This document shows positions 16,572 to 28,028 of a stretch of DNA of 64,000 nt, in pieces (positions within the stretch are counted from its first letter, which is position 1; the number at the start of each line of letters is the position of its first letter). The position numbers were made by a program, and so were the translations under genes. This stretch comes from Allopusillimonas soli (GTDB lineage Bacteria > Pseudomonadota > Gammaproteobacteria > Burkholderiales > Burkholderiaceae_B): NCBI RefSeq assembly GCF_004153445.1, contig NZ_SDQC01000002.1:62001-126000 (forward strand). Direction: 5' to 3'. The notes under the pieces were generated by a model that searched no databases, was not told where the DNA came from, and worked only from the letters and a program-made list of their open reading frames with translations.

Positions 16572-17540
16572 ATGATAGAACCCCGTATTCTATATTTTGT
16601 ACATGTACCTAAAACCGCAGGCACTAGTTTTAGAGTTGCTGCTGAAAAAGCATATGGCAGTGAAAGCATTGCGTGTGACTATGGCTTACAGTCTGGGAAA
16701 ACACATGTTGATATTAAAGGATTAGCCTGCAATAATGATCTGTTTGCTCTCCTTTCTAAATTTCAAAATTCAAAAATAAGAATGATTGCTGGCCATGTTC
16801 CTGTTAGCAAATATTTACCTATCATACCTGCAGAGAATATTATTACTTTTGTACGCCATCCATTATCTCAAATAATCTCTCATTTTGAGCATCACAGACG
16901 TCATAATAAGAAATTTAATAAGAATTTTTTTGATTATATCAAGAGCCCTGAGGCTAATAATTTTCAAAGCAGATTATTGGCGGGAATTCCTTTGGAAACA
17001 ATTGGATTGTTGGGCGTCACTGAGCGTTATAGTGAAAGCTTGGCCGTATTGAATCGAAAATTTGGAACTGATTTTCTAGAGTATTATGAGAATAAAAAGC
17101 CTCTTGAGAAAAATTTAAATTTATGTCTAGATAATGATATTATTCAAGCTATCCTCGATGCGAATAAAGAAGATATTCGACTATTGAAACGTGCTAATGA
17201 ACTACTGGATATAAGGCTCGAAATGGAGCGAAATGGGAGCCCTTTTGTCCATGGAAAGCTGTTGAACATTACTACACGGAGCTTGCGAGGATTCGCATAC
17301 TATGGCTGCAATTCCGAGCCAGTTGAGGTTCAGTGCCTTGTTAACGGAACCTTGTATGGAAAGCCTGTGCGAGCAACTCAGTTCCGCCCTTTACTATTGT
17401 CAGCTAGGCCCCCACGTCGCGGATGTGTGGGCTTTGATATAGAATTTAAACCATTATTGAAACCTGGGGATACCGTTGTATGTAAGGTTGTTGGTAGCAA
17501 TCAAACTATTTTTTCGCACAATATTGAAGGGGAAGCGTAA
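16572..17540 (+). CDS. Sulfotransferase family protein (Sulfotransfer_2 type)
   Basis: A 322-residue PAPS-dependent sulfotransferase candidate. The PAPS 5' loop HVPKTAGTSF is at residues 11-20 and the 3'-phosphate segment ITFVRHPLSQIISHF at 91-105; both are closest in pattern to the carbohydrate (heparan/uronyl-type) sulfotransferases. The last 80 residues form a separate beta-rich tail without recognisable motif. It starts 23 bases after the preceding glycosyltransferase and ends the long plus-strand run. No export signal is present. The probable acceptor is the polymer built by the neighbouring enzymes. Confidence 0.85.
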   Translation: MIEPRILYFVHVPKTAGTSFRVAAEKAYGSESIACDYGLQSGKTHVDIKGLACNNDLFALLSKFQNSKIRMIAGHVPVSKYLPIIPAENIITFVRHPLSQIISHFEHHRRHNKKFNKNFFDYIKSPEANNFQSRLLAGIPLETIGLLGVTERYSESLAVLNRKFGTDFLEYYENKKPLEKNLNLCLDNDIIQAILDANKEDIRLLKRANELLDIRLEMERNGSPFVHGKLLNITTRSLRGFAYYGCNSEPVEVQCLVNGTLYGKPVRATQFRPLLLSARPPRRGCVGFDIEFKPLLKPGDTVVCKVVGSNQTIFSHNIEGEA

Positions 17541-17773: not shown

Positions 17774-19399
17774 TCAAGGTTGTGGAGTAAGATGCGTAGC
17801 TATTCTGTTAGCGAGATCCAAACGACTGCTGTAACTTTTTACTGATGCAATGAGAGCATAGCTCGCTTTTCGAAATTTAGGATTTTGACAACGTTTCTTG
17901 ACCCAGTCTTTATATTGACTTTTGTTCAAGGAATAATCCTGCTTTAAAAGCAATGTCAGGAGTGTCTTTTGTATTTCAAGATCAGCATTTGTTTGAGACT
18001 TGAGTAAGGAAATTGCTTCTTGAGTCTTTCCCATATGATCGAGGGCTATCGCTCGAAGAATAAGGAGGGGAGAGGTTACGATACCTTTTTGTGAAGCAGT
18101 GTGTAGTAATTCATCCGCCTCTGCGTAGCGGCCAATAGTGAGCCACAGGCTGGCCATATGCGTATAGAACCTGGCGTTGTTTGGATTCTTTAATAAGGCT
18201 AACTTATAAAAATGTTCAGCACTTTCTTCATCTAACATTGCCTCATAGCAAGTACCAAGATACATAAAAATATAAGGAGGAGTATGGCCGCTAAGTATGA
18301 CGTTGAGAAATGCCGATTTCGCCTGCTCTAATTGCCCTTTAAATTTACATACTAGCGCGAACTGTTCCCAAATATGTGAGTCAAACTTAGCTCGACTTTC
18401 TATCGCTTCTAATATGCTGCCTAATGATGCTGGCGTACGAGGATATGTATGTAGAAAAGATAATTGCTCGCGCCACTTTAAAGGGAGGGTTTGGGTACAC
18501 GTATTATTCTCTTTGTTTTGTTCAGCCGAGTTTAATAGATCGTTGGCGAAATCTTGCCGTTTTGATTGTTCATCTTGTATATTTGGCCCCCACTTGGGCT
18601 GCTCGTATTCGCTGCGTATATCTGCATGCCTTAATAAGTTGGCCCATAAACTATTTAAAGCTGCAATTTTTTCATCGCTTATCATACGGCATATGCTGCA
18701 ATCAACTTGGTTGTGAGCCAACGATGGTTTCAGCGAACTGTGCGTTTTTGGATTCAGATGTATGTCAAATTGTTTATTTACAAGCTCAATCAGCGAAATT
18801 CCGCTTAATATTGATTGTTGAGTTAAAACTAAGCGCTGAACTTTCGGACATTTTTCGATAAAAGCTAAGATTCGACGGCAATAGGCTATCCACATATCAG
18901 CTGCTAGCTCTGGTTGGTACCAGAATGCGCCATTTTCAGATGCTGAGCCTTCTTGAAATGCCAGAAGCTCGGAATGACGACGATAAAGAGATTGAATGCT
19001 AGCGCTCCAATGCCTAAGCAGGATGACATAGTGGCCGGCGTCGCCTAGCGCCTCACTCCATCTTGGTAAGAATAGGCATTGGCGCGGATCCTTCATTCCC
19101 CAAACTGGTCCATCGATTCGATTTCGTCTTTCGATGTATCGTTCAACATATGGCAGGTTTCGCTCCATTCCAAGCGACACTTCATCGTGAAATTGCCAAA
19201 ATGTATTGTGGCGAGCCAGCCACTGATCATGTAGTGCAACTAGTGGCATGTCTTCGAAATGCCCATCTGGGTTGGATGGATTGGGAGGCATTAGATAGCT
19301 ACCCATGGGTAAGCCCGCGTTATGCAACCACTGAGCCACTGCCGATGTCAGACTGCGGTGAAAACCAGCCACAACTACAATGCGCGATTTCGATGCCAT
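17774..19399 (-). CDS. Sulfotransferase with C-terminal TPR repeats
   Basis: A 541-residue fusion. The N-terminal 300 residues match the sulfotransferase fold: a 5' PAPS loop AGFHRSLTSAV at 11-21, KDPRQCLFLPRW at 103-114 and a 3'-phosphate segment VILLRHWSASIQSLY at 125-139. Residues about 350-500 are tetratricopeptide-like helical repeats (for example FMYLGTCYEAMLDEESAEHF and YTHMASLWLTIGRYAEADEL). The repeats may dock the enzyme to a partner or to the polymer. It is the third sulfotransferase of the locus, on the opposite strand, and is separated from cysNC by a strong terminator, so it probably has its own promoter. Confidence 0.85.
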   Translation of the reverse strand: MASKSRIVVVAGFHRSLTSAVAQWLHNAGLPMGSYLMPPNPSNPDGHFEDMPLVALHDQWLARHNTFWQFHDEVSLGMERNLPYVERYIERRNRIDGPVWGMKDPRQCLFLPRWSEALGDAGHYVILLRHWSASIQSLYRRHSELLAFQEGSASENGAFWYQPELAADMWIAYCRRILAFIEKCPKVQRLVLTQQSILSGISLIELVNKQFDIHLNPKTHSSLKPSLAHNQVDCSICRMISDEKIAALNSLWANLLRHADIRSEYEQPKWGPNIQDEQSKRQDFANDLLNSAEQNKENNTCTQTLPLKWREQLSFLHTYPRTPASLGSILEAIESRAKFDSHIWEQFALVCKFKGQLEQAKSAFLNVILSGHTPPYIFMYLGTCYEAMLDEESAEHFYKLALLKNPNNARFYTHMASLWLTIGRYAEADELLHTASQKGIVTSPLLILRAIALDHMGKTQEAISLLKSQTNADLEIQKTLLTLLLKQDYSLNKSQYKDWVKKRCQNPKFRKASYALIASVKSYSSRLDLANRIATHLTPQP

Positions 19400-19454: not shown

Positions 19455-21356
19455 CTAACAATACCCGTTTCCTTTCAAATACTCGAGTATCTTGTCCGCT
19501 TGTTCTGCAGGTGAGCCTCCACTCGTATCCACCACAATCTCCGCATTCTCCGGCACCTCATATGGTGAATCAATTCCCGTGAAGTTCTTCAGTTCGCCGG
19601 AGCGCGCCTTCTTGTAAAGCCCCTTGGTATCCCGGCTTTCCGCAACCTGCAGCGGAGTGCTGACATACACCTCGATGAATTCTCCATCTTCCAGCATGCC
19701 GCGCGCCATGGTGCGTTCTGACTCGAACGGCGAAATAAAGGATGTAATGACGATCAGGCCGGCATCCACCATCAGTTTGGACACTTCCGCAACCCGGCGT
19801 ATGTTCTCTACGCGGTCTGCATCGGTAAAGCCCAGATCCTTGTTCAGGCCATGGCGTATGTTGTCGCCATCCAGCAAATAGGTATGGCGGCCTTCGGCGT
19901 GTAGTTTCTTTTCCACCAGGTTGGCTATGGTGGATTTGCCCGCGCCCGACAGGCCGGTGAACCAGAGTACGCACGATTTTTGCTGCTTGATGGCACTGCG
20001 GGCTGCCTTGTTCACATCCACGTGTTGCATATGGATGTTATGGCTGCGGCGCAGGGCGAAGCGCAACAGGCCGGCGCCTACCGTATTATTGGTAAGGCGG
20101 TCAATCAGGATAAAGCCGCCAGTATCCGGGTTTTCTTCGTAGGGGTCGAAGGGCACCGGTTTGTCCAGGCTGATGTTGCACACACCGATTTCATTCAAAT
20201 CCAGTTTGCGGGCGGCAATATGCTCCAGCGTATTGACATTGACCTGATGCTTGATCGCCGTAACGGTGGTTGACACCATGTTGTTGGCAATCTTCATCAG
20301 GTAGGGGCGGCCCGGCAACAGGGGTTCGTCGTGCATCCAGATCAGCGTGGCTTCAAATTGGTCGGCCACCTCGGCAGATGCTTCCGTCGTGGAGATGACA
20401 TCGCCACGCGAGATATCGATTTCATCTGCCAGCGTCAGGGTAATAGACTGCCCCGCAACTGCCATGGGCAGGTCGCCGCCTTGCGTCACAATGCGTGCAA
20501 CCGAGCTTTCCTTGCCCGAGGGCTGCACCCGTATTTTGTCGCCCGGCTTGATCAGGCCGCTGGCAATAGTGCCGGTAAAGCCGCGGAAATCCAGGTTGGG
20601 GCGGTTTACCCACTGCACCGGCAGCCTGAAGGGCTGCTGCTGCATTCGCATCTCGTTGATTTCCACGGTTTCCAGGAAGCCCATCAGTGTGCTGCCATGG
20701 TACCAGCCCATATTGGGGCTGCGGCTGATGATGTTGTCGCCCTTGAAGGCGGAGACGGGAATAAAGGTAACGTTTTTCAGGCCTATCTGCTTCGCAAAGG
20801 CCATGTAGTCTTCGACAATCTTGTTGTAGGTGGATTCGGCGTAGTCAACCAGGTCCATTTTGTTGATGGCAACCACAATGTGCTGTATGCCAATCAACGA
20901 CACCAGATAGCTGTGGCGACGGGTTTGTGTCAGCACGCCTTTGCGGGCGTCAACCATGACCACGGCCATGTCGGCGGTGGACGCACCGGTAATCATGTTG
21001 CGCGTGTACTGCTCGTGGCCCGGGGTGTCGGCCACGATGAATTTTCGCTTGTCGGTGGAGAAGAAGCGATAGGCCACATCGATGGTAATGCCTTGCTCGC
21101 GTTCGGCAGCCAGGCCGTCCACCAGCAGGGCAAAGTCGATGGCGTCGCCTTGGGTGCCCCATTTTTTTGAGTCGGCTTCCACGGCAGCCAGCTGATCTTC
21201 AAACAGCATCTTGGATTCGAAAAGCAGGCGGCCTATCAGCGTGCTTTTGCCGTCATCGACGCTGCCGCAGGTAATGAAGCGCAGCAGGTGCTTTTTCTCG
21301 TGTGCGCTCAGATACTGCGCGATATCGGTGGAAATCAGGTCGGAAACGTGTGACAT
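19455..21356 (-). CDS. cysNC: Bifunctional sulfate adenylyltransferase large subunit / APS kinase (CysN-CysC)
   Basis: The 633 residues combine the GTPase subunit of ATP sulfurylase with APS kinase, so with CysD it makes PAPS, the donor for sulfotransferases. The CysN part has the G1 loop GSVDDGKST at 31-39, DTPGHEQY and NKMD motifs. The APS kinase part begins near residue 460, with GLSGAGKST at 468-476 and the FISPF segment holding the catalytic Ser near 540. This is the NodQ arrangement known from sulfated Nod factor synthesis. It overlaps cysD by one base (TGATG). No reductive genes such as cysH or cysI are nearby. Confidence 0.96.
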
Positions 21357-22255
21357 CAGAAGTATCCCTCTTGTTTTTTCTTTTCCATGGAAGCGGCGGA
21401 GTCGTGATCGATGACGCGCCCCTGGCGCTCCGATGTGCGGGTCAGCAGCATTTCCTGGATGATGGCGGGCAGCGTGTCGGCTTCGGACTCAACGGCGCCG
21501 GTCAAAGGGTAGCAGCCCAGTGTGCGAAAACGTACTTTCTTCATCATGGGCACTTCACCCGGCTTTAGCGGCATGCGGTCGTCGTCCACCATGATGAGGG
21601 CGCCGTCGCGCTCCACCACAGGCCGGGACGCGGAATAGTACAGCGGTACGATGGGGATATTCTCCAGGTAGATATATTGCCAGATGTCCAGCTCCGTCCA
21701 GTTGGACAGCGGAAATACCCGCATGGATTCGCCCTTGTGCTTGCGGGCGTTGTACAGCTTCCAGAGTTCCGGGCGCTGGTTTTTGGGGTCCCAGCGGTGT
21801 TGGGCCGTTCGGAAGGAAAAGATGCGTTCCTTGGCGCGCGATTTTTCCTCGTCGCGCCTGGCTCCGCCAAAGGCAGCATCGAAGCGGTGTTTGTCCAGCG
21901 CCTGCTTCAGGCCCTCGGTTTTCATGATATCGGTATGAATGGCCGACCCATGGGTGAAAGGGTTGATATTCTTGGCTACGCCGTCGGGGTTGATGTGCAC
22001 GAGCAGCTCCATGCCCGTTTCCTTGGCAACCTTGTCGCGGAAGGCGTACATGTCGCGGAATTTCCAGCGCGTGTCCACGTGCAGCAGGGGGAAGGGCGGT
22101 ATGGCGGGATAAAAGGCCTTTAGCGCCAGGTGCAGCATGACGGCGCTGTCTTTGCCAATGGAATAGAGCATGACGGGGTTTTCGGCCTCGGCTACAACTT
22201 CCCGCATGATATGAATGCTTTCGGCTTCCAGCCGCTGTAAGTGGGTAAGGGGCAT
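21356..22255 (-). CDS. cysD: Possible internally initiated canonical CysD
   Basis: This is an alternative product of the same frame. The ATG at 22255 encodes MPLTHL, the usual beginning of CysD, and gives 299 residues against 302 in Escherichia coli. An AAGG sequence lies 7 bases upstream of the ATG, which could serve as ribosome binding site. If used, the cell would make both the fusion and normal CysD. Whether both forms exist cannot be decided from sequence. Confidence 0.5.
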
Positions 22256-23158
22256 AGTTTGCCTTGTCGTTGATGTCGAAAATGAAGAGGTTGCCGCAGG
22301 GGTTGCCTGCGGGGCGGGCAGGTCTGCAAGTGCAGGTTGCCCGGTGGGCAGGCACACGGCGCACATGCGCTCGCCTTGGTCGGTCAGCCATTTGCCCAAA
22401 GCCTGGGGCCGCAGCAGGTATGGGTTGTCCAGCACAATGTGTTGCGAGTGGGGAAACTGGGCGATCAGGCCTTCAAGAAATGCTCGCCAATCCTGCAGGC
22501 CTGGCGTCTTGGGAAAAAGCAGCCAGAAAACCTGGCCGCGTGGAGTGTGTGCATAGATCTGATGGCAGTGCAGCGCGGCCACCTGCCGCTGGCCGGCCCA
22601 GAGAATCTGGCCGCCGGCTTTGCGTGCATCGGCCTGCAGCGCCGGATAGTGGGCGGCCATCCATTGAACGACATCCAGGCTGCGCGACGCCTTGGCCTGC
22701 GCCAGCAGATTGGGACAGTTCAGCCCCCAGCTGTGAACGAGGCGGGCGGCATTGCGCACCGGTACCGCCAGGCCACATTGGTGCTTGAACCAGGCCACCA
22801 TGGCATTCTGGCTCCATAGCCTGTGTTCACCCGGCTCCTGTAGTTGGCTCGGGTCGTTGGCCAACATGGCTGTTTGCAGTGCTTGGATGGCTTCTGGTGT
22901 GAGTTTTTCGTAACCCGCGGCGGGTCGCCCGCCTTTCTGGGTAACCACGGCGTCCCAGCCGCCAGCCTGATAGGCCTTGTGCGCGGCGATGACAGTGGGA
23001 ATGCTGAGCCCTGTGGCGCGTCGCGTGGCTTCCAGCGTAGCCCCGGCCAGCCGCATTTCGACTGCCTGGCGACGGCGCTGGTTGGTGACGGAAACGGAGC
23101 GGGTTGTGGTGGCCACGGCACTGTGCTGTACGTTCAGATTGGGCCTAGTGTAAGCCAA
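21356..23158 (-). CDS. cysD: CysD (ATP sulfurylase small subunit) fused to an IS630-transposase-like N-terminal half
   Basis: The 600-codon frame has two parts. Residues 302-600 are a complete CysD ([10 protein letters not shown] at 332-341, [16 protein letters not shown]), which with CysN makes adenylyl sulfate. Residues about 25-285 resemble an IS630-family transposase: a helix-turn-helix at 28-62, a GGRP linker and LTPEAIQAL winged-helix region at 77-147, and a DDE-like RNase H fold ending in IVLDN at 241-245. The position of the first catalytic acid reads LWAGQ (186-190), and the C-terminal glutamate region is absent, so transposition activity is unlikely. ATG 22255 with AAGG upstream could also give normal 299-residue CysD. 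The N-terminal half may be a DNA-binding regulator. Confidence 0.88.
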
Positions 23159-23256
23159 TTCAGGCCTTTATGCACTATTAAACATTAATTTATTATGGAA
23201 TAGACTAAAACTATTCGCTACAATCAAATCGCTTTCAACTCACCCATCTTTAATTT
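23159..23256. promoter_or_regulatory. Divergent promoter region between cysD fusion and cysQ
   Basis: The 98 bases between the divergent genes are much more AT-rich than the flanking coding DNA. An inverted repeat, GAATAG at 23198-23203 and CTATTC at 23211-23216, lies in the middle with a 7-base spacer, and a TACAAT that could be a -10 element for cysQ is at 23219-23224. The symmetric element could bind a regulator, for instance CysB-like or the helix-turn-helix half of the fusion itself; this is inference. Confidence 0.45.
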
Positions 23257-24084
23257 ATGTCCGAACCCACTAGAAAAGAATTGCTGGAGCGCCTCATTCC
23301 CGTTGTCCGTGCAGCGGGGGATGTCATCATGGACATCTACGATACCGATTTCCAGGTGCAGGGCAAGGCCGACAACTCGCCGGTAACCGTGGCCGATCAG
23401 CAAGCCGAGGCGCTTATTGTGCCGGCCCTGCAGGCGCTGCTGCCCGGCGTGCCCGTGGTGGCCGAAGAGGCGGTGGCCGCGGGCGATATTCCGCAGGTGG
23501 GCGATCGTTTCTGGCTTGTGGATCCGCTCGACGGCACGCGCGAGTTCATCAACCGCAACGGCGAGTTCACTGTCAATGTGGCGCTGATCGAGTCGGGGCA
23601 GCCTGTGCTGGGTGTCGTGCTGGCACCTGCCTTGGGGCGTCTTTATGCCGGGGGGCAGGGTGTCGGGGCATTTCTCGAGGACGCGCAGGGCCGGTGCGCC
23701 GTGGCTTGCCGTGTGCCGCCCGATTGCGGGCTTACCGTGGTGGCCAGCCGCTCCCACGGGGATGCCGAGGCGTTGGCAGCCTTTCTGAATGGTCGCAAGC
23801 TGGCCGAGTTGCGCAATGCGGGCTCCTCTTTGAAGCTTTGCCTGGTGGCGCACGGCGAGGCAGATCTTTACCCCCGTCTTGGGCGCACCATGGAGTGGGA
23901 TATTGCCGCTGGCCACGCGGTGCTGGCTGCCGCCGGCGGGGCGGTGAATACCCTGGACGGCCTTGCCTTGCTCTATGGCAAGCCTGGTTTCGAGAACCCG
24001 CACTTCGTGGCTGTGGGGCTGCACGATGCACTCCCTGCCGGCGCCGAAGGCCGTTTGCCGCCCTCCGCCGCGCCGGGTGCATGA
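23257..24084 (+). CDS. cysQ: 3'(2'),5'-bisphosphate nucleotidase (CysQ)
   Basis: CysQ hydrolyses PAP, the by-product of sulfotransferases and PAPS reductase, to AMP. The 275-residue protein has the inositol monophosphatase-fold metal sites: EEAVAA near 70, DPLDGTREF near 90 and WDIAAGHAVLAAAGG near 218. PAP strongly inhibits sulfotransferases, so its placement beside three such genes makes sense. It is divergent from cysD, and its stop overlaps the SLC13-type transporter start (ATGA). Confidence 0.95.
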   Translation: MSEPTRKELLERLIPVVRAAGDVIMDIYDTDFQVQGKADNSPVTVADQQAEALIVPALQALLPGVPVVAEEAVAAGDIPQVGDRFWLVDPLDGTREFINRNGEFTVNVALIESGQPVLGVVLAPALGRLYAGGQGVGAFLEDAQGRCAVACRVPPDCGLTVVASRSHGDAEALAAFLNGRKLAELRNAGSSLKLCLVAHGEADLYPRLGRTMEWDIAAGHAVLAAAGGAVNTLDGLALLYGKPGFENPHFVAVGLHDALPAGAEGRLPPSAAPGA

Positions 24085-25814
24085 TGACAGCGTGGCTGGT
24101 GCTGGCATCAGTTGGCATATTGTTGGCGGTATTGATTCATGGCAGGGTGCCGGCAGCCATTGCCTTTACGGTCCTGGCCGGTATCTATTTACTTGCCGGG
24201 CTTATTCAGGCGTCCGCGTATCTGGCCAGCTTTTCCAATTCGGCGCTGGCCACCCTGGTGGTGCTGCTGCTGGTATCCATCGCGCTTGAGCGTTCTCCCA
24301 TCTTGGGGCAGCTTTCCCGTCTGTTGATCAGGCCGGGGTCAGCCACCCGGGCCGTGTTCAGGCTGTCCGGCGCCTCAGTATTGGCATCGGCCTTTGTGAA
24401 CAACACCGCGGTGGTGGGCGCTTTTCTGGGCATGGTCACGCACCAGCGGCGCATTGCGCCTTCCAAGCTGCTCATCCCGCTGTCTTATGCCTCTATATTA
24501 GGCGGCATATGTACATTGGTGGGTACCAGCACCAATCTCGTGGTCAATTCCTTTGCCGTCAACGCGGGCCTGCCGGCATTGGCCATGTTCCAGTTCACCT
24601 GGGTGGGTGTGCCCGTGGCGCTGGTGTGCCTGGTGGTGCTTGCCTTGTCGGCCCGCCTGCTGCCGGTGCGCGAAACAGACAGCAAGCGCGACGCGCATGC
24701 ATACTTCGTCGAAGCGCTGATCGCGGCTGATTCGCCCATGGCAGGCAAGACCATCGAGGCCAACGGGCTGCGCAATCTGGATGGCCTGTTTCTGGTGGAG
24801 ATTCTGCGCGGCGGCCGGTTGATTTCCCCGGTTGGCCCCGAAACAGTGCTCGAGCCGGAAGATCAGCTATTGTTCACCGGCGAGGTTCAAAAGCTGCAAA
24901 CCATGCGTCAGTTCAAGGGGCTGCATGTGTTCGGCGCGCCGGCCTCATCGCTGCTGGCGTCCAATCTGGTCGAGGTGGTGATTTCAAATGAATCCGAGCT
25001 GGCGGGCCGCACCTTGCGCGAGGTGGACTTCCGCACCATGTTCGATGCCGGCGTGGTGGCCATCCGTCGGGGCGAGCGCCGGCTTACGGGTCAGCTTGGC
25101 CGCATTCCGCTGCGTGTGGGCGATTCTCTATTGCTGGCCACGGGGCCAGACTTCCGCCAACACCGCAACCTGGATCGCAATTTTCATATCCTGAACGGCG
25201 ATGGCCTGCGCCCGCATCTGGGCCGCTGGCAAAACCGGCTTGTAACCGGCGGTTTTGCGCTGGTGATTGCCCTGTCCGCATTGAACTGGCTGCCTTTGTT
25301 GCAAGGCATGATGGTGCTATTGGCCTTGTTGTTGGCCAGCGGTGTATTGAGCCTGTCCGAAATCCGCCGGCGTTTTCCGTTTGAGCTGGTATTGATTATC
25401 GGCTCGGCACTGGCCATGGCTACAGTGCTGGAAACATCAGGCGCGGCGGCGCTGATCGCCGGCGGAATACGTTATGTATTTCAGGACTACGGCGTCATGG
25501 GCGCTTTTGTTGGGGTCTACCTGATGACGCTGGCGCTTACAGAACTGGTCACCAATAATGCGGCGGCAGCTCTGGCTTTCCCTATTGCGCTGTCCACGGC
25601 GCGTGCCTTTGGCGTGGATCCAACCGCTTTCGTCATGGTGGTGGCTTATGGCGCGAGCGCGGGTTTTCTCATGCCATTCGGCTATCAGACGCACCTTATG
25701 GTGTATTCGGCGGGCCATTACCGCATGGGGGATTTCGTGCGGGTTGGGCTGCCGGTAAGCATTGCGTATTCGGTGTGCGTACTGCTATTGGTGCCGCTGG
25801 TATTTCCATTCTGA
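24081..25814 (+). CDS. SLC13-family anion transporter with TrkA-C domains
   Basis: A 577-residue inner-membrane transporter of the DASS/SLC13 family, probably bringing in sulfate. Hydrophobic N- and C-terminal halves flank two cytosolic TrkA-C-like domains (about 205-370). Conserved SNSALATL, FVNNTAVV and TSTNLVV segments mark the first half and LVTNNAAAALAFP the second. The start is the ATG overlapping the cysQ stop; an ATG three bases later is equivalent. Sulfate as substrate is inferred from the cys neighbours, as related algal and cyanobacterial proteins with TrkA-C domains carry sulfate; other divalent anions are possible. Confidence 0.82.
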   Translation: MMTAWLVLASVGILLAVLIHGRVPAAIAFTVLAGIYLLAGLIQASAYLASFSNSALATLVVLLLVSIALERSPILGQLSRLLIRPGSATRAVFRLSGASVLASAFVNNTAVVGAFLGMVTHQRRIAPSKLLIPLSYASILGGICTLVGTSTNLVVNSFAVNAGLPALAMFQFTWVGVPVALVCLVVLALSARLLPVRETDSKRDAHAYFVEALIAADSPMAGKTIEANGLRNLDGLFLVEILRGGRLISPVGPETVLEPEDQLLFTGEVQKLQTMRQFKGLHVFGAPASSLLASNLVEVVISNESELAGRTLREVDFRTMFDAGVVAIRRGERRLTGQLGRIPLRVGDSLLLATGPDFRQHRNLDRNFHILNGDGLRPHLGRWQNRLVTGGFALVIALSALNWLPLLQGMMVLLALLLASGVLSLSEIRRRFPFELVLIIGSALAMATVLETSGAAALIAGGIRYVFQDYGVMGAFVGVYLMTLALTELVTNNAAAALAFPIALSTARAFGVDPTAFVMVVAYGASAGFLMPFGYQTHLMVYSAGHYRMGDFVRVGLPVSIAYSVCVLLLVPLVFPF

Positions 25815-25860: not shown

Positions 25861-25919
25861 AATGGGTGCCCGCGGCCGCTTGTGCCGATTTCACCTGTTT
25901 TTACTGCACGCTTGCAAGC

Positions 25920-28028
25920 ATGATAGGCATATTTTCCGCCGGCATATTGCGAATTCCGCATTTGTCCTCCTTTATTGGAGACCATGTCCGCTTGATATCG
26001 AAACGCGGCGCCGAAGGCCTGACAGCCATCGCCGGCTGGGGGCAGCGCCCCACCACGGCCGCTGCGCGCGCCTATGCCAGGCGGCGGGGCTTGCCATATA
26101 TTTCCCTGGAAGACGGCTTTCTGCGCTCGCCGGGGCTTAGTGTGGATGGCGACGTTACGCTGTCCATGGTGGTGGACGACCTGGGCATTTATTACGACGC
26201 TTCACGGCCTTCGCGCCTGGAGGCGCTTATCGCTGGAATCGAGCTGGATGATGCCCTGGCCAGGCAGGCAGGCCGGGCCATGCGCCTGATACGCAAGTAT
26301 CGTTTGTCCAAATACAACCATTCGCCCGAGGTAACGTTGCCGGCGGCGCAGCCAGGCAGCGCCTCGCGTGTACTGGTGGTGGACCAGACTTTTGGCGACA
26401 TGTCCGTGTCGCTGGGCGGGGCCGATCCCGACACCTTTCTTGACATGCTGGCCTGTGCTTTGCGTGAAAACCCTGGCGCCGAAGTCTGGATCAAGACCCA
26501 TCCCGACATCCTGGCCGGTAAGAAGCGTGGTTACCTGACCGCGCCTGATATCGATCCAGCCGATGCGATGCGTGTGCATGTACTTGCGCGTGGCGCGTCG
26601 CCCCTGCCCTTGCTGGAGCAAATGGACAAGGTCTATGTGGTGACCTCGCAAATGGGCTTTGAGGCTTTGATGATGGGCAAGCCGGTGGTGTGTTTCGGCC
26701 TGCCCTGGTATGCGGGTTGGGGGCTTACGGACGATCGCCACGCCGGTGTGGCGGCGCTGCGTGCGCGCAGGCCCGTGGCCCGCTCGGTCGAGCAGCTGTT
26801 TGCGGCAGCCTATATGCAGTATGCCCGCTATTTGAACCCGGCCACGGCGCAATCGGGCAGTATTTTCGATGTTATTGAATACCTGGCATGCAATAAGCGT
26901 ATGGAAACGCTCACGCGCGGTACGCTGTACTGCATGGCCATGGGGGTGTGGAAGCGCGGTGTTGTGCGGCCATTTGTACATACGCGTTCCAACAAGGTGC
27001 GTTTTGTAGGCAAACTGTCACGCTTGGCGCACATGCCGCTTGCTGAAGACAGGCGTATGGTGATCTGGGGCACCAAGGCGCTTGAAGCGTCGCGCGCTGC
27101 GGCGCAAAGGCATGGCATGCCGCTGTGGCGCATGGAAGATGGCTTTCTGCGGTCTGTGGGGCTGGGGTCTGATCTGTTTCGTGCTGTGTCTCTTGTGTTG
27201 GATACGCACGGCATGTATTACGATCCGGCTTCGGGCAGCGATCTTGAGCGCATGATCCAGCGCCAGCAACTGGACAATGACGACATCGCCAGGGCGCGTG
27301 AATTCAATGCCGTGTATGTGGCTTCGGGCGTCAGCAAATACAACATACAAGCCGGCGGGTTTGCCGTGGATGCCGGCGGCCGGCGAGTGATACTTGTGCC
27401 GGGCCAGGTGGAAGACGATGCATCCATACGGTTGGGTACGGGCGACGTCTGCACCAACCAGGGCTTGTTGCAGGCTGTGCGCGCCGCCAACCCGAGCGCT
27501 TATATTATCTACAAGCCCCACCCGGACGTGGAGGCCGGCAACCGCGAGGGCAGGGTAAGCGCCGAGGCCTTGGCCGTGCTCGCTGACTTGTGCGCCAACC
27601 AGGCCAACATCATCGACTGCATCCTGGTGGCCGACGAAGTGCATACCATGACGTCCTTGTCTGGCTTCGAGGCCTTGCTGCACGGCAAGGTGGTGCACTG
27701 CTATGGAGGCCCCTTCTATGCAGGGTGGGGGTTGACGCAAGATCATTTTCCCTTGCCGCATCGCACAAGGCGGGCCTCGCTGGAAGAGTTGATCTTTGCG
27801 GCGATACTGCAGTATCCCCGCTATGCCTTGCCGGAGGGCGCGGGCGTTGGGGGCTACGTGCCGGCTGAAGCGGTGATGAAATGGCTGGCTACCCAGGCCA
27901 GGATCATGCAACGGCGCGGAATTGGCGAACGAGGGCCCATCCCCGCCTGGATGGTGCGCCGGGGAATCAAGACCTGGTCTATTGCGCAATCTGCGATGGA
28001 AGAGTGGCGTTACCGGCGCAGGCGCTAA
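25920..28028 (+). CDS. kpsC: Capsule polysaccharide beta-Kdo transferase (KpsC-like)
   Basis: KpsC builds the poly-Kdo linker that anchors ABC-exported capsules to lipid. The start at 25920 gives 702 residues and the conserved N-terminus MIGIFSAGILRIPHL; a GTG 54 bases upstream is in frame but unlikely. The protein is an internal duplication of about 330 residues. LEDGFLRSPGL, GIYYDAS and KTHPD in the first half are matched by MEDGFLRSVGL, GMYYDPA and KPHPD in the second, consistent with its two transferase modules. It confirms the capsule class suggested by kpsMT. The partner kpsS is not in the window. Confidence 0.93.
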   Translation: MIGIFSAGILRIPHLSSFIGDHVRLISKRGAEGLTAIAGWGQRPTTAAARAYARRRGLPYISLEDGFLRSPGLSVDGDVTLSMVVDDLGIYYDASRPSRLEALIAGIELDDALARQAGRAMRLIRKYRLSKYNHSPEVTLPAAQPGSASRVLVVDQTFGDMSVSLGGADPDTFLDMLACALRENPGAEVWIKTHPDILAGKKRGYLTAPDIDPADAMRVHVLARGASPLPLLEQMDKVYVVTSQMGFEALMMGKPVVCFGLPWYAGWGLTDDRHAGVAALRARRPVARSVEQLFAAAYMQYARYLNPATAQSGSIFDVIEYLACNKRMETLTRGTLYCMAMGVWKRGVVRPFVHTRSNKVRFVGKLSRLAHMPLAEDRRMVIWGTKALEASRAAAQRHGMPLWRMEDGFLRSVGLGSDLFRAVSLVLDTHGMYYDPASGSDLERMIQRQQLDNDDIARAREFNAVYVASGVSKYNIQAGGFAVDAGGRRVILVPGQVEDDASIRLGTGDVCTNQGLLQAVRAANPSAYIIYKPHPDVEAGNREGRVSAEALAVLADLCANQANIIDCILVADEVHTMTSLSGFEALLHGKVVHCYGGPFYAGWGLTQDHFPLPHRTRRASLEELIFAAILQYPRYALPEGAGVGGYVPAEAVMKWLATQARIMQRRGIGERGPIPAWMVRRGIKTWSIAQSAMEEWRYRRRR

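Follow-up and report, generated by a model that had tools for sequence, protein, structure and literature searches.

Why should the CysD subunit of an ATP sulfurylase begin with what looks like the remains of a transposase, and what might such an extension do? The question is raised by a locus of Allopusillimonas soli, in a stretch of 64,000 nucleotides that was analyzed as a whole and is here termed the window. On its reverse strand a single uninterrupted frame of 600 amino acids (21356-23158) runs from a TTG at 23158 to a stop at 21356-21358. No ATG lies ahead of its helix-turn-helix (HTH), the start being this TTG or a GTG at codon 15. The features of the locus are as follows:

19455..21356, reverse strand: cysNC, 633 aa, CysN GTPase and APS kinase, with a one-base overlap with the cysD stop
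21356..23158, reverse strand: fused gene, transposase-derived N-terminal part and CysD, 600 aa, TTG start
21356..22255, reverse strand: complete CysD domain (TIGR02039), with a possible internal ATG at 22255
22256..22342, reverse strand: variable linker (mean pairwise identity 0.17)
22343..22618, reverse strand: degenerate RNase H-like (DDE_3) remnant, residues 181-272, by profile comparison
22709..22828, reverse strand: winged HTH, residues 111-150, HTH_33-like by profile matches, also in the short forms described below
22919..23086, reverse strand: first HTH, residues 25-80, the best-conserved segment of the extension, with sub-threshold matches to HTH_28/29
23175..23188, reverse strand: candidate operator, the AT-rich near-palindrome TTAATGTTTAATAG, 16 bp ahead of the start codon
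23257..24084, forward strand: divergent cysQ-like phosphatase (Inositol_P)

The fused gene and its neighbors

Residues 302-600 constitute a full-length CysD (TIGR02039, 519.7 bits against a cut-off of 396.6) and cysN lies in the same operon; an earlier sequence-only reading, which had described a complete CysD from residue 302 preceded in one frame by about 280 residues, is thus borne out. The fused gene is the sole CysD of this genome (4.15 Mb, 99.99% complete) and, as a search for Sat-type enzymes (PF01747, E<=0.01) returned none, the only ATP sulfurylase found in it. One further gene with a PAPS_reduct domain, a 295-aa frame on the same contig, is read as CysH on account of its size.

A cysNC homologue is present in all 21 loci compared (the window and 20 others), being separated from the fused gene by another gene in L130. 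A cysQ-like gene was recognized by clustering in 14 of the 21 and lies next to the fused gene in divergent orientation in 12; the window's own comes in addition. Glycosyltransferase-like genes occur in 12 of the 21 and TSUP-like transporters in nine (putative names, assigned to clusters by sequence likeness), and genes read by eye as cysI, cysG and cysH lie nearby in G158. Based on these neighbors, the operon probably serves both assimilation and the supply of PAPS. In the window cysQ is followed by a permease-like gene (23694-25814 by eye, its true start probably near 24078) and by a capsule synthesis gene (Capsule_synth, 25866-28028). Two further frames, 16572-17540 and 17774-19399, have nucleotide-binding-like N-termini resembling those of sulfotransferases in a single motif only. 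We dropped this identification: neither has a Pfam sulfotransferase match, the former showing nothing and the latter TPR, and Sulfotransfer_3 is not found in the window genome.

Ancestry and distribution of the extension

Residues 1-301 match the IS630 transposase profile NF033545 (E 7.9e-14; 51.8 bits, under its cut-off of 100) and, also below cut-off, HTH_28, HTH_29, HTH_33 and DDE_3. In some relatives the same region is closer to the transposases: the L148 extension matches NF033545 at E 1.2e-25, and the curated cut-offs, under which the window remains, are passed by L148 and L150 for HTH_33 and by L148 for DDE_3. In profile-profile comparison the long forms, i.e. those with both HTH units, align with 13 IS630 proteins at 99.9% (E 1.1e-36), co-linear over 261 columns, so that about 270 residues of the window protein are homologous. 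The short forms, which lack the first HTH, are linked to the long ones at 95.1% (E 3.2e-8) and only weakly to IS630 directly (13.4%, E 0.002); a match at E 3.9e-7 was also obtained between the long-form profile and the short form in G601, and two short-form extensions examined against Pfam and NCBIfam gave no match. Both the order of HTH, winged HTH and DDE_3 and the sequence homology thus correspond to IS630, as the sequence-only reading had proposed for residues 1-301, and the profile search removes the objection that no transposase profile would be matched.

An intact D-D-E triad is found in none of the 31 long forms. In the window the first acid position reads W-A-G within LWAGQ (G189, at 22592-22594), the second acid is kept as D244 of VLDN (22427-22429), and the third is absent together with its NPxE strand; the alignment of the long forms confirms what had been read from the window on all three points. 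Across the 31, the first acid is retained in four (L143, L148, L150 and L166), the second in three (the window, L148 and L150) and the third in none; in L152, L158 and L163 an aspartate sits one residue after the second-acid position. The distance from the tryptophan at the first-acid position to the RG..W motif, which is among the conserved residues of the RNase H-like part, is 10-27 residues in the long forms versus about 43 in IS630 proteins. This internal deletion and the truncation before the third acid are common to all 31. Hence, homology of the N-terminal part to IS630 transposases and its predicted catalytic inactivation are well supported, and the combination of profile homology with a broken triad indicates that we are almost certainly dealing with a domesticated IS630-type transposase fused to CysD. 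The window genome has one copy of the extension.

With the N-terminal part as query (E<=0.001), 15 of 268 genomes of the family were matched: six of these, from four genera by taxon labels, have 589-636-aa frames with CysD confirmed, and the other nine have transposase-sized frames of 323-414 aa. The CysD part as query matched 190 of the 268 at 1e-60. All 19 CysD genes of at least 70% identity in these 268 genomes are 485-636-aa frames that bear the extension; among the matches listed, CysD genes at about 50% identity are mostly of 300-380 aa, with some in longer frames. The first HTH is missing from 13 of the 19, which come from 12 genomes (G241 has two); the other six are long forms. At the level of the order, 82 of 399 genomes have a CysD match at 1e-120, which added 13 more short forms beside many plain CysD genes. 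The long-form profile matched 42 of the 399, mostly in free IS630-like frames, and the fused genes recognized in the frames inspected among these 42 are those of the window genome, G075 and G601 (a short form).

A contig scan of a wider genome collection yielded no match with a single sequence as query; with the alignment as query and a piece of the first HTH as pattern it recovered 30 loci, a pattern by which short forms could not be found. In 28 of these 30 the extension runs in frame into CysD, the contigs of L148 and L156 ending before CysD and that of L158 inside it: among the 30 relatives with this HTH type the extension enters CysD wherever the contig permits the check. The same in-frame fusion recurs in five other family genomes and in these 28 loci and is, therefore, neither confined to this genome nor a product of chance or of a sequencing error joining two genes, alternatives that the sequence-only reading had raised when it called for a survey of homologues. 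Five of the 30 loci are the five already found in the family genomes, which with the window gives 31 distinct long forms. Their hosts include Bordetella petrii BT 1 9.2, Pusillimonas TS35, Advenella FME57, two Achromobacter, Methyloversatilis, Azohydromonas, Comamonas, and bins of Granulosicoccaceae and Chromatiales.

The short forms amount to 26 genes and two found later, 28 in all. The latter two (L174 and L175), both fused, are the only matches of the short-form profile in a class-wide scan of 369 genomes; in 230 family genomes the same profile gave 12 matches, ten of them fused and previously found. Short decayed pieces of the short-form extension alone occur in G239 (C11:95681-95923) and G085 (C1:2539797-2539898). 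Five plain genes with long upstream frames (L109, L110, L111, L119 and L120) were rejected as fusions, since the profile detected no extension domain in them at E<=1, as was the 638-aa frame L035 among the transposase matches, which has no CysD motif. A literature search of open-licence PMC papers returned no report of such a fusion.

Trees of the CysD part do not decide on a single origin of the fusion, which is neither shown nor excluded by them. With 56 rows a single clade of fused genes is rejected (p-AU 5e-6) with G536, which lacks the domain, nested among the fused genes, a placement that rests on a long branch; when the long-branch plain rows G536 and G531 are left out, a branch (support 90/90, not starred) separates the 32 fused rows from all others. 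In a wider tree of 79 rows plain and long forms are intermixed on a poorly supported backbone, and without the same two rows (77 rows) one clade is borderline (p-AU 0.051). The internal deletion and truncation common to all 31 long forms argue for one fusion.

Conservation along the long forms is uneven: mean pairwise identity is 0.62 in the first HTH, 0.81 in CysD and 0.13-0.41 elsewhere. We compared dN/dS in nine long and seven short pairs. Five of the long pairs, some of which share members, have dS<1 (dS being saturated in the other four); in these five, dN/dS ranges over 0.01-0.12 in the first HTH and 0.02-0.12 in CysD, against 0.32-0.64 in the remainder of the extension, the constraint on the first HTH thus being similar to that on CysD. 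Short extensions show 0.13-0.43 in the four short pairs with dS<1, the highest short-form value belonging to the L105/L107 pair, which has no upstream site of the kind described below. The in-frame fusion is thus conserved across species and under purifying selection, as in host-transposase fusions. A passive relic, tolerated and slowly eroding, would agree with the low identity outside the first HTH, with the decayed pieces in G239 and G085, and with the mixing of plain cysD and long forms in the wide tree, which suggests losses or separate gains. We give this explanation scarcely any weight, since 59 genes (31 long, 28 short) have the extension as an open frame of about 190-300 codons, and dN/dS is below 1 in the unsaturated pairs, with the first HTH constrained like CysD.

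The internal start suggested earlier at 22255 does exist as an ATG at codon 302. An ATG lies within 25 codons before the LEAES motif in 23 of 28 long forms, also in the window, and production of free CysD from such a start is possible in the long forms. In the short forms, the absence of any ATG, GTG or TTG from those 25 codons in 11 of 26 speaks against it.

Upstream sites of the long and short forms

The region 23159-23256, to which the sequence-only reading had pointed for binding, contains the candidate site 23175-23188, a palindrome that, with up to 1 mismatch allowed, occurs nowhere else in the genome. Its generalized form, ATTAAATrTTTAAT, is present within 2 mismatches in 25 of 31 long-form upstream regions (local shuffles 0.77, maximum 3, a figure that, like the one given for the short forms, overstates the strength of the motif because both motifs were picked by eye after seeing the upstream regions side by side, with related loci not being independent). 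It is found upstream of one of 26 short forms (1.07 expected) and of none of 19 plain cysD genes, a set of 19 regions extracted from 21 loci given. The 14-mers were taken from seven Granulosicoccaceae/Chromatiales loci, and 18 of the 24 others match, all regions having been seen beforehand. Among the six of 31 long forms without a match are L148 and L150, which resemble IS630 most closely of the forms tested.

Six of those seven loci (L147, L155, L158, L160, L161 and L163) have a second AT palindrome-like site, about 27 bp from the first. The window has a second small inverted repeat, GAATAG...CTATTC (23198-23216), upstream of the candidate site, and other inverted repeats are seen by eye in the same region in B. 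petrii (L141) and Advenella (L143). The idea that the upstream sites are copies of IS630 ends was dropped, as by eye they bear no likeness to the end repeats of about 10 of the 13 IS630 copies.

The short forms are preceded by a different element: 21 of 26 loci (shuffles 0.13), from 10 genera of 6 families by taxon labels, have TGTCGCA and TGCGACA at a distance of 86-90 bp, each with at most 1 mismatch. The 12-base consensus of these outward-pointing arms is CAAATTGCGACA, and the interior is 78% A+T. This pair is found upstream of none of the 31 long forms and none of the 19 plain cysD genes. Hence, the type of upstream site goes with the N-terminal architecture: the palindrome with the long forms and the arm pair with the short ones. 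Five of the 26 short forms lack the pair: L105-L107, from one genus, have a degenerate RTAERRL helix, and L056 and L057 retain the helix yet have no pair. G536, with its CysD in the short clade and the extension domain absent, also has no pair upstream, and neither of the two later loci, L174 and L175, has a full one. In L175, from outside the order, the left arm is intact and the right arm is degenerate by eye, at about the same spacing; in L063, a locus of G241, two fused cysD genes of the short type lie about 6.5 kb from one another, each with an arm pair of its own.

In 26 genomes the forward search for the exact pair (spacing 70-100) returned 24 matches, of which 10 lie at fused genes, sites with a mismatch being missed by an exact search. 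The 14 others are at chance level (22 in a reversed-pattern control), and none combines 86-90 spacing with AT-rich arms; three (G596, G487 and G458) have spacings of 86-89 and G+C-rich interiors. In whole-locus scans pairs with one mismatch per half occur by chance in plain and long loci, outside the upstream regions, the window itself holding one at 21262.

The spacing stays at 86-90 bp while the distance to the start codon varies: relative to the start codon chosen, right arms range from -65 to +17, overlapping codons in some loci, and left arms overlap the cysQ start in some. A constant promoter position relative to the arms was considered and dropped, promoter-like hexamers lying at inconsistent distances. 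Given where the arms lie, control could act on the message, with the arms being RNA elements at the 5' ends of both transcripts bound by the extension. We regard this as very improbable: a fixed spacing across divergent transcripts makes sense on DNA only, and the pair is also present without an adjacent cysQ (L112/L113).

A candidate autogenous regulator and its known counterparts

Together, these observations suggest that the fused protein is probably an autogenous DNA-binding regulator of its operon. The earlier guess at an autoregulator is supported by the match between upstream sites and N-terminal architecture; binding and regulation themselves we infer. CysD within the CysDNC complex would carry the DNA-binding module to the upstream sites, where the bound module would repress or tune its own operon and often the divergent cysQ too. 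In the long forms the first HTH would contact the AT palindrome; in the short forms the winged HTH would bind the two inverted arms, bridging about 88 bp. The state of the enzyme (substrate, APS or CysN engagement) might set binding, thereby coupling sulfate activation, i.e. the supply of APS and PAPS, to expression. A further extension of this model, which we consider doubtful, is that synapsis has been retained, with a CysD-fused dimer bridging the inverted arms 86-90 bp apart and looping the divergent cysQ/cysDNC promoters. The fixed arm spacing would then be a relic of the paired-end complex, the state of the loop would be read from ATP sulfurylase activity, and the switch in site type, from palindrome to arm pair, would record that the first HTH was lost.

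Sulfur genes are commonly under LysR-type regulators, and the sites might thus belong to another regulator, with the extension being a protein-interaction or assembly domain of CysDNC that does not bind DNA. Such a role would account for the retention of the RNase H-like part, with RG..W among its conserved residues. It also has a eukaryotic precedent: PMC12062965 states that the HTH of C. elegans F-box proteins is not involved in transcriptional regulation, so captured transposase HTHs need not bind DNA. Nevertheless, we hold an assembly role to be unlikely, as the first HTH is far better conserved than the rest, the site type follows the architecture and is absent from the plain cysD upstream regions tested, and no regulon was apparent at the search stringency used (26 genomes for the pair, the window genome for the palindrome).

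If the preferred reading as an autogenous regulator is true, a bacterial DDE transposase was turned into a regulator through fusion with the enzyme under its control, adding a direct control of sulfate activation. Cysteine synthesis and, on the evidence of neighboring genes only, sulfated surface sugars may both be supplied by these loci. Intermediates would be preserved: forms with two acids kept (L148 and L150), forms with none, and forms that have lost the first HTH and have a different type of site. This would make it possible to follow by experiment how a transposase was domesticated in steps and how protein and site evolved together. What is new here is that the upstream DNA differs by the architecture of the fused gene.

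The extension shares with IS630 and Tc1-mariner transposases the order HTH, winged HTH, RNase H-like domain; it differs from them in the broken triad, truncation and internal deletion of all 31 long forms, and in being a single-copy part of CysD in the window genome. Likewise, the fused gene resembles CysD proper (TIGR02039) and NodP, likewise an ATP sulfurylase small subunit, in its full-length domain above cut-off and the cysN-cysC of its locus, and differs in the N-terminal extension of 190-300 residues. PutA, BirA and NadR are enzymes that carry their own DNA-binding domain, as the fused CysD carries a domain of DNA-binding type; unlike the latter, none of them is known to be transposase-derived. 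Another counterpart is TldR, whose ancestry lies in TnpB. As described in PMC13418256, TldR is a transposon-related transcription factor of bacteria, and thus, as we propose for the fused CysD, has a regulatory function while being related to a transposon protein; TldR is RNA-guided, whereas the protein reported here joins a DDE transposase to a metabolic enzyme. Finally, the eukaryotic F-box proteins with a Tc1/mariner HTH, host-transposase fusions according to PMC12062965, are alike in that an HTH of the same transposase superfamily was captured by a host gene; the CysD fusion, in contrast, is bacterial, involves a metabolic enzyme and has conserved sites upstream of its own gene.
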